From: Actinotalea subterranea | GTDB taxonomy: Bacteria; Actinomycetota; Actinomycetes; Actinomycetales; Cellulomonadaceae | NCBI RefSeq assembly: GCF_008364845.1 | Contig: NZ_VTTP01000011.1 | Location: 62,001 to 126,000, forward strand | Direction: 5' to 3' | DNA: 64,000 nt | In this document: positions 27,475-32,187 of the stretch, piece by piece | Numbering within the stretch: the stretch's first letter is position 1 | Layout of the letters: every line of letters starts with the position of its first letter | Notes under the pieces: model-generated | Told to the model about the DNA's origin: nothing | The model's database searches: none | Seen by the model: only the letters and a program-made list of their open reading frames with translations | Made by a program: the position numbers and the translations under genes

Positions 27475-29031
27475 CTACCAGCCTGCGACCTTGTAGTCCT
27501 TGAGGAATACTCCGTGCACGTCCTCACCGTTCTCGCCGCGCACGATCGGGTCGTACACACGCGCAGCGCCGTCGACGAGGTCGAGCGGGGCGTGGAAGCC
27601 CTCCTCGGCGAGGCGCACCTTCGTCGGGTGCGGCCGCTCGTCCGTGATCCACCCGGTGTCGACGCTCGTCATGAGGATCCCGTCGGCGAGGAGCTCGGCG
27701 GCGCTCGTGCGCGTGAGCATGTTGACGGCTGCCTTCGCCATGTTGGTGTGCGGGTGTCCTGGACCCTTGTAGCCGCGGGAGAACACGCCCTCCATCGCGG
27801 AGACGTTGACGACGTAGGTGCGGCGGGCCGGGGACGCGGCGAGCGCCGGGCGCAGCCGGCTGACCAGGATGAACGGTGCCGTCTCGTTGCAGAGCTGCAC
27901 CTCGAGCATCTCGAGCGGGTCGACCTGGTCGACCGTCGCGACCCAGCTGTTGCTGTCGTGGAGGTCGGGGAGCAGGCCGCCGGCGTCGATCGCGTCGCCC
28001 CTGGCCATGCGCGCGAGCGACGACGACCCGCCGGCGAGAGCCTGGGCCGTCAGGTGGTCCGCGTGCGCCACGGCGAGCGCCCGGGCACTGCCGGGCGCCG
28101 CGTCGTCGTCGTGGTGCGCGACCGCGCCCGAGCCGATCGACCTGACGAGCGCCGCAGGGTGCGCGTCGCTCGCGTGCTCGAAGGTGACGAGGTGCGGCAG
28201 CGGGCCCTCGGGCAGGGGCGCGCGCTCGGCCTCGACGAGCGGGGCGTAGGCGCCTGCGGACCGCCGCACGGTCTGCGCCGCGTTGTTGATGAGGATGTCC
28301 AGCGGTCCGGCGGCAGCCACCTCGTCGGCCAGCGCGACGACCTGGGCCGGGTCACGCAGGTCCAGGCCGACCACGGTCAGGCGGTGCAGCCACTCGGCGC
28401 TGTCGGGCATGGCCGTGAACCGGCGCACGGCGTCCCGGGGGAACCGCGTCGTCACGGTGGTGTGCGCGCCGTCGCGCAGGAGCCGCAGCGCGATGTACAT
28501 GCCGATCTTCGCCCGGCCGCCGGTCAGCAACGCGCGCCGTCCCGTGAGGTCGGTCCGTGCGTCCCGCTTGGCGTGGTTGAGGGCGGCGCACGCAGGGCAC
28601 AGCTGGTGGTAGAAGGCGTCGACGGCCGTGTAGAGCTCCTTGCAGACGTAGCACGCGCGCGGACGACGCAGGGTCCCGGCACTCGCGCCGCGCGTCTGGG
28701 AGATCAGGGGCAGACCCGCCGTCTCGTCGTCGATGCGCTGCGGCGAGCCGGTCGCGGTCGCGGCCACGACGGCGGCGTCCGCGGCGCTGATGGCGGCGCG
28801 CCGGTCGAGGCGGCGCTGCTTCTTGACCGCCTTGAACAGGCGCGCGGTGGCGCGGCGCAGCGCGAGGGCGTCGGGGTGGTCGGCGGGCAGCAGGGACGCC
28901 TCGGCGAGCACGGCGAGCGCGCGCTCGAGCTCTGCGGGGTCGATGCGCGGCGTCGCTCCGTCCGTCGGGTCATCGACGTGGTGGTCGCCGTCCATCGGCG
29001 GGGAGGCGGGGGGCTGCACGGTCGTCGTCAT
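27475..29031 (-). CDS. Short-chain dehydrogenase-like protein with N-terminal zinc ribbon
   Basis: Protein of 518 aa, far longer than a 250-aa SDR. Residues 1-125 are a helical, charged region. A CYVC...CPAC pair (about 128-150) looks like a zinc ribbon. The Rossmann domain follows with LLTGGRAKIGMYIALRLL (a TGGxxxIG loop) and ILINNAAQT (NNAG-like). The catalytic serine segment NVSAMEG is present, but the YxxxK position reads TNMAK, so the usual tyrosine is replaced. An insertion of about 120 residues separates NNAAQ from the serine strand. ATG 29031 has GAGG just upstream. It is divergent from a DUF6421 gene over 128 bases. The substrate is unknown. Confidence 0.82.
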   Translation of the reverse strand: MTTTVQPPASPPMDGDHHVDDPTDGATPRIDPAELERALAVLAEASLLPADHPDALALRRATARLFKAVKKQRRLDRRAAISAADAAVVAATATGSPQRIDDETAGLPLISQTRGASAGTLRRPRACYVCKELYTAVDAFYHQLCPACAALNHAKRDARTDLTGRRALLTGGRAKIGMYIALRLLRDGAHTTVTTRFPRDAVRRFTAMPDSAEWLHRLTVVGLDLRDPAQVVALADEVAAAGPLDILINNAAQTVRRSAGAYAPLVEAERAPLPEGPLPHLVTFEHASDAHPAALVRSIGSGAVAHHDDDAAPGSARALAVAHADHLTAQALAGGSSSLARMARGDAIDAGGLLPDLHDSNSWVATVDQVDPLEMLEVQLCNETAPFILVSRLRPALAASPARRTYVVNVSAMEGVFSRGYKGPGHPHTNMAKAAVNMLTRTSAAELLADGILMTSVDTGWITDERPHPTKVRLAEEGFHAPLDLVDGAARVYDPIVRGENGEDVHGVFLKDYKVAGW

Positions 29032-29070
29032 GTCCTCGGTCCGGGTTCTGCGGGCGGTGGCGCCCGGAGC

Positions 29071-29119
29071 ACTCTACGCAGCGCACCCGTTGACCGGCCC
29101 GGAGGAGCGACCGTACCGT
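29071..29119. promoter_or_regulatory. Back-to-back promoters of the SDR and DUF6421 genes
   Basis: Rightward: TTGACC (29090-29095), 18 bases, TACCGT (29114-29119), which would start RNA about 35 bases before the DUF6421 ATG. Leftward: TAGAGT on the minus strand (29071-29076) is a fair -10 for the SDR gene; its -35 is weak. The two promoters face away from each other within 50 bases, so one regulator could control both. Confidence 0.5.
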
Positions 29120-29159
29120 GCAGTAGCTTTCGGCCGTCGCGAGAGGGTGGGGCACGATC

Positions 29160-31052
29160 ATGGGTCGGTTTCCGCAGGTCAGGTGGGCGGCTTCGGCCCT
29201 GACACGCACCGAGGGCGCCGCGCCCCTCACGCTCGAGGAGCCGCCGGACGTGCTCGTGCTGAGCCCCGGCGCCTCGCTCGGACCGCAGGAGGCGGACGCC
29301 CTCGCCGGGGGAGCGGGCCTCGTCGTCGTCGGAGCCGGGCCATGGGCTCCGGAGATCGTCGACCTCGTCGCCCGCTACGGCGTCCTCGTGCGCCCGGGCG
29401 CCTCGGAGCCCACGGCGATCGTGCCCGACCGGGCGTCCTGCACCGGCGTGACGCGGGAGGACCTCGTGGCGCGCGTCGTCGACCTCGAGGGCACCGTCGA
29501 CGCCCACCTCGAGGCGGGGGCCACCGGGGCCGCGCCCTTCCTGCGCACGCCCGCCGGGACGGTCGTGGGTGTCGTCGGCGCCCGCGCCGGCGACGGGGCC
29601 CGCGCGGCCGTCGTCGCCGCCGACCTGCGCGAGGGCGGGTCCGCCCGGCACCTGCTGCACAACCTGACGACGTGGTGCGCACCGGCCGCGCAGGGCCCCA
29701 CCGGCGACGACGCCGTCGGACCCAGGCCCACCTCGGCCCCCGCCGTCGAGCACCCCGCGTGGCACGACCTCAAGGCGGCGGTGGCCGAGCTCCAGCCACT
29801 GCAGGCGCAGGACGGGTCCGTGCCCGTCGAGGGGGACCGGGCGCGCGCCGCCGACCTCGTGCGGCGGGTCGCCGACGACGTCGCGGCCCTGAGCCCCCTG
29901 TTCCCGCACGACGGGACCTACCTCGCGGCCCTGGGGACCGATCTGCGGCGATGGGCCGACGAGGGCATGGGGGTGCCGGACTTCCTCGACTCGCTCGTGG
30001 CGTTCCAGCCCCAGGAGCAGCGCGTCGACGGCCTCCAGCACCTCGTCGTGTTCCCGATGTACACGCAGAACGGGAGCCGCGACCGCCACCTCGAGGCGGT
30101 GGTCGTCGAGGTCATCTGGCCCCGGTTCGTCGCGGACCTCGAGGCCGGCGACTACTCGAACCGCCTCTTCGTGCCCATCCGGTTCGTGGACTTCACCGCG
30201 GGCTACGACACCAACTCGGCGGTGCTGTTCCCGGAGACCGTCGCTATGCGGTCCGTGCCCACGTTCACGTGGGGCGCGATCTTCGCCGACCGGGAGGCGG
30301 CGCGCTTCCGACGGGTCGTCCGTGCGGCCGCGGACACGACGGGGCTGAGCCTGCCGCCCGACGCCGCCCGGCTGCTCGCGGACCAGCAGCTCGCGGAAGA
30401 GACGTTCGTCATGTGGGACCTGATCCACGACCGGACGCACATGCGCGGCGACCTCCCCTTCGACCCCTTCATGATCAAGCAGCGCATGCCCTTCTTCCTG
30501 TACGCGCTCGAGGAGCTGCGGTGCGACCTCACGGCGTTCCGCGAGGCGGTCGCGCTCGAGAAGGCCGGGGTCGAGCACGCCCGCCTCGTCCAGTACGCGG
30601 TGATCTTCGACCGCATCTTCCGCTTCGCCATCACCGGCTCACGCGTGCGCAACTACGACGGGCTCGGCGGCCAGCTGCTCTTCGCCTGGCTGCACCAGCA
30701 CCACGTCCTGCACTGGACCGACAACCGGTTGAGCATCGACTGGGCGGAGGTGCCCGAGGTCGTGCTGGCCCTCGGCCGCCAGATCGAGGACCTGTACTGG
30801 CGCTCGATCGACCGGCCGAAGATCGCCCACTGGCTCGCCGCCTACGAGCTCGTCGCGACGACCGTCACGCCGCACCCCGCGTCGACCTGGGCGAAGGGCC
30901 CCGACGCCCTGCCCCTGACGGGACCGCTCAAGGAGATGACCGACGCCGTGCTCCCGGACGAGTTCCCCCTGTCGATGTTCTTCGAGGCGTTGACCCGCAG
31001 GATCGGGGACGTGGTGGACTCGACGGCGGGCATCACCGGGACCACAGCCTGA
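29160..31052 (+). CDS. DUF6421 family protein
   Basis: Soluble protein of 630 aa of the DUF6421 type, which has no established function as far as I know. ATG 29160 is preceded by AGAGGG. The N-terminal 190 residues vary and contain Rossmann-like strands (LVVVGAGPW). The C-terminal 400 residues look like the conserved core: VFPMYTQNGSRDRHLEAV, FTAGYDTNSAVLFPETVAM, MWDLIHDRTHMRGDLPFDPF and an ALEELRCDL helix. The HDRTHMRGD segment with nearby Glu/Asp could bind a metal (HxxxH), but this is only suggestive. It shares a promoter region with the zinc-ribbon SDR gene, and the pair may act on one pathway. Confidence 0.75.
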   Translation: MGRFPQVRWAASALTRTEGAAPLTLEEPPDVLVLSPGASLGPQEADALAGGAGLVVVGAGPWAPEIVDLVARYGVLVRPGASEPTAIVPDRASCTGVTREDLVARVVDLEGTVDAHLEAGATGAAPFLRTPAGTVVGVVGARAGDGARAAVVAADLREGGSARHLLHNLTTWCAPAAQGPTGDDAVGPRPTSAPAVEHPAWHDLKAAVAELQPLQAQDGSVPVEGDRARAADLVRRVADDVAALSPLFPHDGTYLAALGTDLRRWADEGMGVPDFLDSLVAFQPQEQRVDGLQHLVVFPMYTQNGSRDRHLEAVVVEVIWPRFVADLEAGDYSNRLFVPIRFVDFTAGYDTNSAVLFPETVAMRSVPTFTWGAIFADREAARFRRVVRAAADTTGLSLPPDAARLLADQQLAEETFVMWDLIHDRTHMRGDLPFDPFMIKQRMPFFLYALEELRCDLTAFREAVALEKAGVEHARLVQYAVIFDRIFRFAITGSRVRNYDGLGGQLLFAWLHQHHVLHWTDNRLSIDWAEVPEVVLALGRQIEDLYWRSIDRPKIAHWLAAYELVATTVTPHPASTWAKGPDALPLTGPLKEMTDAVLPDEFPLSMFFEALTRRIGDVVDSTAGITGTTA

Positions 31053-31140
31053 GCGGGGACGACCAGGGCACGGCGCCGGGCCCACGCCCGACGGACGGGC
31101 CCGCACCGGCGCGACCGCTCGCGATGGCAGGATGCTCGAC

Positions 31141-32187
31141 GTGACGATCCACGACACCGCCACGCGCGGCTTCGCCTCCGACAACTACGCCGGCGTCCAC
31201 CCCGAGGTCCTCGCGGCCCTCGCGGCGGCCAACGGCGGCCACCAGATCGCGTACGGCGAGGACGTCTACACGGCGCGCCTGCACGAGGTGATGGCCGAGC
31301 ACATGGGCCGCCCGGTCGAGGTCTTCCCGGTCTTCAACGGCACGGGCGCGAACGTCCTGTCGCTCCAGTCGATGCTCCCGCCGTGGGGCGCCGCGATCTG
31401 CGCGGAGACCGCGCACATCAACACCGACGAGAACGCCGCGCCGGAGCGCGTCGCGGGCATCAAGCTCCTCACGGTCCCGACGCCCGACGGCAAGCTCACG
31501 CCCGAGCTCGTCGACCGGCAGGCGTGGGGGTGGGGCGACGAGCACCGCGCTCAGCCCCTCGTCGTCTCCGTCACCCAGACCACCGAGCTCGGGACGTGCT
31601 ACACGCCGCAGGAGATCGCGGCCCTGTGCGAGCACGCCCACGCCGCGGGCATGCGGGTGCACCTGGACGGCGCCCGGATCGCCAACGCGGCCGCCTCGCT
31701 CGGCCTGCCGATCCGGGCCTTCACGGCCGACGTGGGCGTCGACGTCGTGTCCTTCGGCGGCACCAAGAACGGCCTGCTCGGGGCCGAGGCCGTCGTCGTG
31801 CTCGACCCCGAGGCGTCCACCGGCCTGCCGTACCTGCGCAAGATGAACATGCAGCTCGCGTCCAAGATGCGCTTCATCTCCGCCCAGCTCGTCACGCTCC
31901 TCGAGGGCGACCTGTGGCTCCGCTCAGCCCAGCACGCGAACGCCATGGCGCTCCGGCTGCGCGACGCCGTGCAGGGCCTGCCGGGCGTCGAGGTCGTGCG
32001 GCCCGTGCAGGCCAACGCGGTGTTCGCGGTGCTGCCGCGCGCCGCCGCCGACCGCCTCCGCGAACGCTTCCGCTTCTACGACTGGGACGTCGCGACCGGC
32101 GAGGTGCGCTGGATGTGCGCGTTCGACACGACGGAGGCGGACGTGGACGCGTTCGCGGCGGCCCTCGCCCAGGAGCTCGCGCGCTGA
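31141..32187 (+). CDS. Low-specificity L-threonine aldolase
   Basis: PLP enzyme (348 aa) that splits threonine and allo-threonine to glycine and acetaldehyde. The fold-type I features are present: FASDNYAGVHPEVL at the N-terminus, HLDGARIANAA with the aspartate for the pyridine nitrogen, and SFGGTKNGLLGAEA with the PLP lysine. I choose GTG 31141 over the in-frame ATG 31132 because CAGGAT (31128-31133) lies seven bases before it as a -10 for a leaderless mRNA, and family members begin at this point. It converges on the App1 gene; a GGAACCCGGGTTCC palindrome lies between the two ends. Confidence 0.9.
   Translation: MTIHDTATRGFASDNYAGVHPEVLAALAAANGGHQIAYGEDVYTARLHEVMAEHMGRPVEVFPVFNGTGANVLSLQSMLPPWGAAICAETAHINTDENAAPERVAGIKLLTVPTPDGKLTPELVDRQAWGWGDEHRAQPLVVSVTQTTELGTCYTPQEIAALCEHAHAAGMRVHLDGARIANAAASLGLPIRAFTADVGVDVVSFGGTKNGLLGAEAVVVLDPEASTGLPYLRKMNMQLASKMRFISAQLVTLLEGDLWLRSAQHANAMALRLRDAVQGLPGVEVVRPVQANAVFAVLPRAAADRLRERFRFYDWDVATGEVRWMCAFDTTEADVDAFAAALAQELAR

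Follow-up and report, generated by a model that had tools for sequence, protein, structure and literature searches.

A PolE-family DUF6421 gene of Actinotalea subterranea in a candidate oxidase-aldolase operon, beside a divergent, mainly independent SDR gene

The window, a 64,000-nucleotide stretch of Actinotalea subterranea DNA (contig NZ_VTTP01000011.1, positions 62,001 to 126,000), carries two divergent genes, one encoding a large non-canonical short-chain dehydrogenase/reductase (SDR) and the other a protein of the DUF6421 family. The open reading frames (ORFs) agree with the coordinates, sizes and 128-base gap given for this pair in the initial annotation, which had taken it for an undescribed system under shared control. 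The explanation that we think best, and hold with slightly more confidence than doubt, is a different one: the DUF6421 gene and an aldolase-like gene behind it would form an operon in which a PolE-family oxidase hydroxylates an amino acid that the aldolase then cleaves, with the divergent SDR gene being mainly an independent neighbour. The features of the locus are as follows.

27475-29031, minus strand: large non-canonical SDR, 518 aa (ORF and Pfam adh_short)
27733-27747, minus strand: TNMAK (T429...K433), replacing the YxxxK of SDRs; T429 and K433 in 62/62 aligned sequences
28588-28653, minus strand: CxxC...CxxC ribbon of the large SDR (C127, C130, C145, C148), kept in 62/62 aligned sequences
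29032-29159: gap of 128 bases between the start sides of the divergent SDR and DUF6421 genes
29071-29080, minus strand: separate SDR-side element, ACTCTACGCA in the window and ACTGTACGCA in relatives (conserved block)
29090-29119, plus strand: candidate promoter-like element of DUF6421, TTGACC-N18-TACCGT (conserved block; predicted from sequence)
29160-31052, plus strand: DUF6421 protein, 630 aa (ORF and PF19985)
30426-30440, plus strand: HDRTH (H423, D424, H427), putative first part of the Fe site, aligned with HExxH of SnPolE
30510-30515, plus strand: E451-E452, one of them the putative third metal ligand, aligned with LEELR of PolE
31132-32187, plus strand: L-threonine-aldolase-like enzyme dependent on pyridoxal phosphate (PLP), 351 aa, 79 bases downstream of DUF6421 (Beta_elim_lyase, 1.1e-50)

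The DUF6421 protein matches PF19985 at 1.6e-238 (792 bits; curated cut-off, 25) over protein residues 198-628 and the whole profile (1-437 of 437), and comprises a PolE-like catalytic domain (about residues 194-630) and an N-terminal domain (about 1-190) lying outside the Pfam model. A recent report (PMC12614342) assigns PolE of polyoxin biosynthesis to DUF6421 and shows that it desaturates L-isoleucine with Fe(II), O2 and tetrahydrobiopterin (BH4); mutating its HExxH...E motif abolished activity, apart from E203A, which gave insoluble protein, and Glu230 was proposed as a metal ligand. About 10,000 homologues are reported there, PolE itself being the characterised one. The earlier view that the system is undescribed and that neither gene has a known job therefore has to be given up for DUF6421, which has a biochemical member in PolE (PMC12614342).

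Solved PolE chains match the window protein by sequence at about 1e-12, and the alignment places HDRTH over the HExxH of PolE and LEELR over its LEELR. Residues H423, D424, H427, E451 and E452 show no variation in alignments of 13 and of 34 DUF6421 sequences, and the spacing from H427 is x23 to E451, inside the published x21-23, and x24 to E452, as in an HE/DxxH...E metal motif; either E451 or E452 may be the third metal ligand. The HDRTHMRGD motif singled out in the initial annotation lies at residues 423-431, and its suggestion that DUF6421 depends on a metal is borne out by the family, HDxxH being the metal motif that aligns with PolE. Judged by sequence, the window DUF6421 is a member of the recently described PolE family and, by family, a metal-dependent enzyme.

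Consistent with this assignment, a predicted model of residues 194-619 matches PolE with Z scores of 28.2-29.0 and a root-mean-square deviation of 3.4-3.6, with 358-365 of about 370 residues aligned. The next-best fold match is dipeptidyl peptidase III (DPP III) at Z 17.5, which would speak for a DPP III-like zinc peptidase; the window protein has HDRTH in place of the HExxGH zinc motif of DPP III (PMC12614342) and matches PolE far more strongly, so that this reading was rejected as scarcely credible. Matches to the N-terminal domain (window 29160-29729) also came from loci of the window's family and, covering part or most of the domain, from Humibacillus and Terrabacter loci. Residues 9-176 of the domain, in a low-confidence part of the model, match chain G of human OST-B weakly (6s7t, Z 6.1).

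A neighbouring gene was counted if it followed DUF6421 on the same strand at a distance of up to 5 kb; for the large SDR, any position in the fetched locus counted. The counts cover 67 DUF6421 loci from 64 genomes and an overlapping set of 80 named loci, those ranking highest among at least 570 confirmed stretches, some loci being cut by contig ends. An L-threonine-aldolase-like gene was found downstream in 48/67 loci (in one, L160, as a 93-bit piece) and a gene for a small SDR of about 230 residues in 56/67; 41 loci had both and 63 had either. Among the 80 named loci the small SDR was present in 68, the aldolase in 62, both in 57 and either in 73. The large SDR lay within 2 of the 67 loci and 4 of the 80. 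DUF6421 thus has more widely conserved partners than the large SDR, namely the aldolase and, at other loci, a small SDR bearing a GGWR motif. In the window's family the aldolase gene adjoins DUF6421 in 15 of the 18 genomes that have the latter. Compared with PDB structures, the aldolase profile has L-threonine aldolases as its closest solved relatives (5vye, 5.9e-107), and K212, within GGTKNG and invariant (9/9), is taken by us to be the PLP lysine.

Several loci showed further regularities. Several genomes (L103-L108) have recurring genes behind the operon, encoding DUF3000, an RNase D-like exonuclease, a thiolase and a 3-hydroxyacyl-CoA dehydrogenase (by a scan of one representative of each gene), and a SelR (MsrB-like) gene lies upstream of the operon in L103 and L107. 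In Curtobacterium pusillum (L280) the genes for DUF6421, small SDR, aldolase and large SDR are consecutive on one strand. Genome G171 has a second, distant DUF6421 (48-50 bits; L173, G171:C1:6562000-6576000), and neither small SDR nor aldolase was found in the 14-kb locus around it.

In an alignment of 37 of the 68 small SDRs from the named loci, YxxxK and LVGGWR are invariant (37/37), and the following residue is Gly in at least 90%; one member left out of it, from L243, has GGWV for GGWR. Human dihydropteridine reductase (QDPR) carries GGWAGG at the aligned place and has a similar C-terminal PE..F..T stretch. A regular-expression count, with a pattern too narrow to be informative, gave GGW in 6/6 of the fetched SDRs, and within a small control list the motif occurred in human QDPR alone. 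A pterin-recycling role of the small SDR is attractive because dihydropteridine reductase boosted PolE activity 2-3 fold (PMC12614342). The small SDR probably regenerates tetrahydropterin or handles the product.

The large SDR is matched by adh_short at 2.6e-15 in two stretches, the SDR halves falling at residues 167-255 and 417-466. In an alignment of the window with 61 chosen relatives' loci, every one a match, the glycine-rich cofactor loop of classical SDRs (T170, G171, G172, I176 and G177) is conserved in all 62 sequences, as are C127, C130, C145, C148, S411 and K433, and the place of the catalytic Tyr is taken by Thr (T429) in every one. Classical SDRs have roughly 62 residues between the Asn and the catalytic Tyr; N249 to T429 spans 180 residues here, about 118 extra. 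The ribbon gave a weak match to the Spt4 zinc finger (0.0038, under the curated cut-off). The oversized SDR of the initial annotation, with its CxxC...CxxC ribbon, insertion of some 120 residues and missing Tyr, was thus confirmed, and since the ribbon and the absence of Tyr are conserved in 62/62 sequences they are features of an SDR family and not sequencing errors. Four other genomes of the phylum (L134-L137) have distant relatives, 45-48% identical, that keep the ribbon and TNMAK. Our literature search on zinc-ribbon SDRs or a DUF6421 operon, outside which most subscription papers lay, returned nothing relevant beyond PMC12614342.

The distribution of the two genes was examined at several taxonomic levels. 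In 396 genomes drawn evenly from the phylum, DUF6421 was present in 22 and the large SDR in 37. Among 248 genomes of the order, DUF6421 occurred in 49 and the large SDR in 82, with 40 genomes having both, 9 DUF6421 without SDR, 42 SDR without DUF6421 and 157 neither. The large SDR was therefore present in 40/49 DUF6421 genomes vs 42/199 others (Fisher test, odds ratio 16.6, p 4e-15, not corrected for phylogeny). Measured from start to start, the two genes lay within 10 kb in 2 of the 40 genomes with both, namely the window's own and G447, where they are convergent; in 15 they were at least 54 kb apart on one contig, and in 23 on different contigs, including G529, whose two genes both sit close to contig ends and could be adjacent.

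The window's family was represented by 150 genomes, of which 18 had DUF6421 and 80 the large SDR. The 18 comprise five with the divergent pair, all from the window's genus, four from other genera with a convergent pair, three (G655, G703 and G727) without an SDR beside DUF6421, two without any SDR, and four (G529, G648, G744 and G757) with the genes on different contigs, one gene being near a contig end. These counts indicate a linkage that is real in the family, changes orientation and is rare outside it. The large SDRs of G655, G703, G727, G744 and G757, not found beside DUF6421, are 70-71% identical and those of the four genomes with a divergent SDR 84-89%, as if two large-SDR lineages had been exchanged in the window's genus. 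The initial expectation that the two genes occur and pair together held in part: their presence is correlated, and the pair is divergent in 5 of the 10 DUF6421 genomes of the genus and adjoining in 9/18 of the family. As a rule the pairing failed, and the divergent SDR-DUF6421 pair as a widely conserved unit was rejected, given 2/40 order genomes within 10 kb. Function could still connect the two genes more loosely, even where they are not neighbours.

Comparison of four divergent pairs shows two conserved blocks between the genes. Of 13 further loci of the family, 10 carry the element TTGACC-N17/18-TAnnGT ahead of DUF6421, and six of these 10 have no divergent SDR. The SDR-side block ACTGTACGCA (at most 2 mismatches) occurs in 4/13, namely in those loci whose SDR is divergent. 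A distance of 962 bases separates the two elements in L304. Outside the Cellulomonas family the DUF6421 element was not seen: allowing at most 1 mismatch it was present in 6/146 loci, all six from that family, one of which (L240) is probably the same genome as L312. Since the elements are separate, with this wide spacing in L304, and the DUF6421 element is kept without an adjacent SDR, we read the region as two candidate promoters side by side instead of one, and a single shared promoter was rejected; the shared control presumed in the initial annotation does not survive this comparison. The large SDR appears as an odd, widespread protein, more widespread than DUF6421, that stands here mainly by local synteny and has a promoter-like element of its own.

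Taken together, these data are compatible with a short pathway. DUF6421 would be a non-haem Fe(II), tetrahydropterin-dependent oxidase acting on a free amino acid by hydroxylation or desaturation, its gene being the first of a short putative operon whose second gene encodes the L-threonine-aldolase-type PLP enzyme. The mechanism we hold most likely is hydroxylation of the beta carbon, after which cleavage of the beta-hydroxy amino acid by the aldolase could yield glycine plus an aldehyde. Elsewhere the small SDR, missing at the loci of the window's family, would regenerate the tetrahydropterin or handle the product.

Several results weigh against this oxidase-aldolase pathway. The published reaction of PolE is desaturation, not beta-hydroxylation (PMC12614342). 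The structural model has a mean pLDDT (predicted local distance difference test) of 71.9, with residues 429-441 after HDRTH below 50 and much of the N-terminal domain weak. No aldolase was found within 5 kb in 19/67 and 18/80 loci, and all four named Cellulomonas loci are without aldolase and small SDR within 5 kb downstream, three of the four having the large SDR 3.2-5.6 kb from DUF6421. The small SDR is absent at 18/18 DUF6421 loci of the window's family, and none was found in the 150 family genomes at 1e-30, in a search that had no positive control and scored the best 18 candidates per genome; within the window's own genome, the small-SDR profile gave 18 matches, the best at 79.6 bits vs 204-347 for 56 accepted members. 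Because of this absence, pterin recycling in the family would need another enzyme. Human QDPR scores 38.9 bits with the small-SDR profile, less than several ordinary SDRs encoded in the window's genome (up to 80.8); fold searches place the small SDR among generic SDRs, and QDPR was not among the matches listed for it (the best 60 of 314, 50 by Foldseek and 50 by VIA-align).

Pterin supply gives a mixed picture. The window's genome has a pterin-4a-carbinolamine dehydratase; it yielded no match to 6-pyruvoyl-tetrahydropterin synthase (PTPS, PF01242), which tells against the pathway as well, and BH4 itself is for this reason probably not the natural pterin. Within the order, the dehydratase occurs in 31/49 DUF6421 genomes vs 95/199 others (p 0.057, a weak association) and is absent in 18/49, a further difficulty; its association with the large SDR has p 0.031. 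The dehydratase is not obligatory for DUF6421 genomes.

Other explanations have to be weighed against these findings. As an alternative to degradation, the aldolase might work in the synthetic direction, or DUF6421 might desaturate as PolE does, so that the operon would build an unusual amino acid. L-threonine aldolases are reversible. PolE, itself a desaturase, belongs to a biosynthetic cluster, and its authors anticipate PolE-type enzymes in pathways to unusual amino acids (PMC12614342); no peptide synthetase was found among the ten recurring neighbours and operon members scanned with Pfam, a weak counterargument as it covers those ten alone, and we regard a biosynthetic operon as doubtful. 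A common pathway of the large SDR and DUF6421, in which the SDR would oxidise or reduce the product or else recycle the pterin, is favoured by how strongly they co-occur in the order (both in 40 genomes, against 9, 42 and 157 in the other classes), by an SDR copy in 10/10 DUF6421 genomes of the genus vs 3/7 others, by the nine adjoining pairs (five divergent, four convergent) among the 18 family genomes, and by the three Cellulomonas loci mentioned above and L280, with all four genes in a row. However, the co-occurrence is not phylogeny-corrected, the genes lie within 10 kb in two of the 40 order genomes, their conserved elements are separate, and near DUF6421 a helicase (9/15) and APP1 (10/15) are found in more family regions than the SDR (7/15). 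In L308-L310, from the window's genus, a DEAD-box helicase gene occupies the divergent place of the SDR, and among 26 SDR loci the large SDR had no recurring neighbour that extended past a single genus, as far as crude ORF picking and clustering can tell. A single pathway for this pair is therefore considered unlikely.

A related suggestion is that, in the window's family, the large SDR replaced the small one, which is absent from all 18 DUF6421 loci there, nine of them having the large SDR beside DUF6421. Nine order genomes lack the small SDR at the DUF6421 locus, and three of these (G453, G524 and G563) lack the large SDR too; conversely, 34 of the 40 order genomes with a small SDR also have the large one, which itself is devoid of both the GGW motif and the catalytic Tyr. 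Such a stand-in is very improbable, and it was rejected on account of the three genomes without both and the 34/40 with both. A broader extension of the oxidase-aldolase pathway, which we put forward tentatively and think doubtful, is an actinobacteria-wide set in which Fe and a tetrahydropterin other than BH4 would serve to oxidise a free amino acid at the beta carbon, a QDPR-like SDR would recycle the pterin, cleavage would give glycine and an aldehyde, and the large SDR would be a usually unlinked accessory. As an accessory of the same route, the large SDR would have its strong co-occurrence explained.

If this broader extension is true, it would represent a pterin-dependent route of amino-acid breakdown outside the aromatic amino-acid hydroxylases. 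The enzyme family of DUF6421 is recently described through PolE; its recurring putative operon partner, the aldolase, is not mentioned in the initial annotation. The recurring order DUF6421 - small SDR - threonine aldolase offers a testable guess at the role of family members outside polyoxin biosynthesis and at their pterin-recycling partner. The experimental focus shifts accordingly from the divergent SDR to the downstream aldolase gene, although the SDR co-occurs strongly with DUF6421.

Compared with known systems, the window DUF6421 shares with PolE (PDB 9j2e, 9j3g and mutants) the Pfam family, the fold and the H-D/E-x-x-H plus Glu motif, but the two are 18-21% identical and the window protein has an extra N-terminal domain. 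In an alignment read by hand, two of the three residues mutated in solved PolE chains are kept (F140 and Y280 of SnPolE correspond to F357 and Y499) and one is changed (Y157 to I374). PolE is encoded in a nucleoside-antibiotic cluster, whereas the window DUF6421 gene adjoins an aldolase gene instead. That aldolase (31132-32187) is grouped by profile with the L-threonine aldolases (PDB 5vye, 7yvr and 1v72), from which it differs in being encoded next to a gene for a DUF6421 oxidase. Similarly, the small SDR of other loci has in common with QDPR (PDB 1hdr, 3orf) the size, YxxxK and GGWx(G)G at the aligned place, but the whole-profile score is no higher than for ordinary SDRs, and the small SDR is absent at the window locus. 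Finally, classical SDRs share the glycine-rich loop, NNA, Ser and Lys with the large SDR, which differs from them by the replacement of Tyr with Thr throughout the family alignment, the four-Cys ribbon and the extra residues of its insertion.

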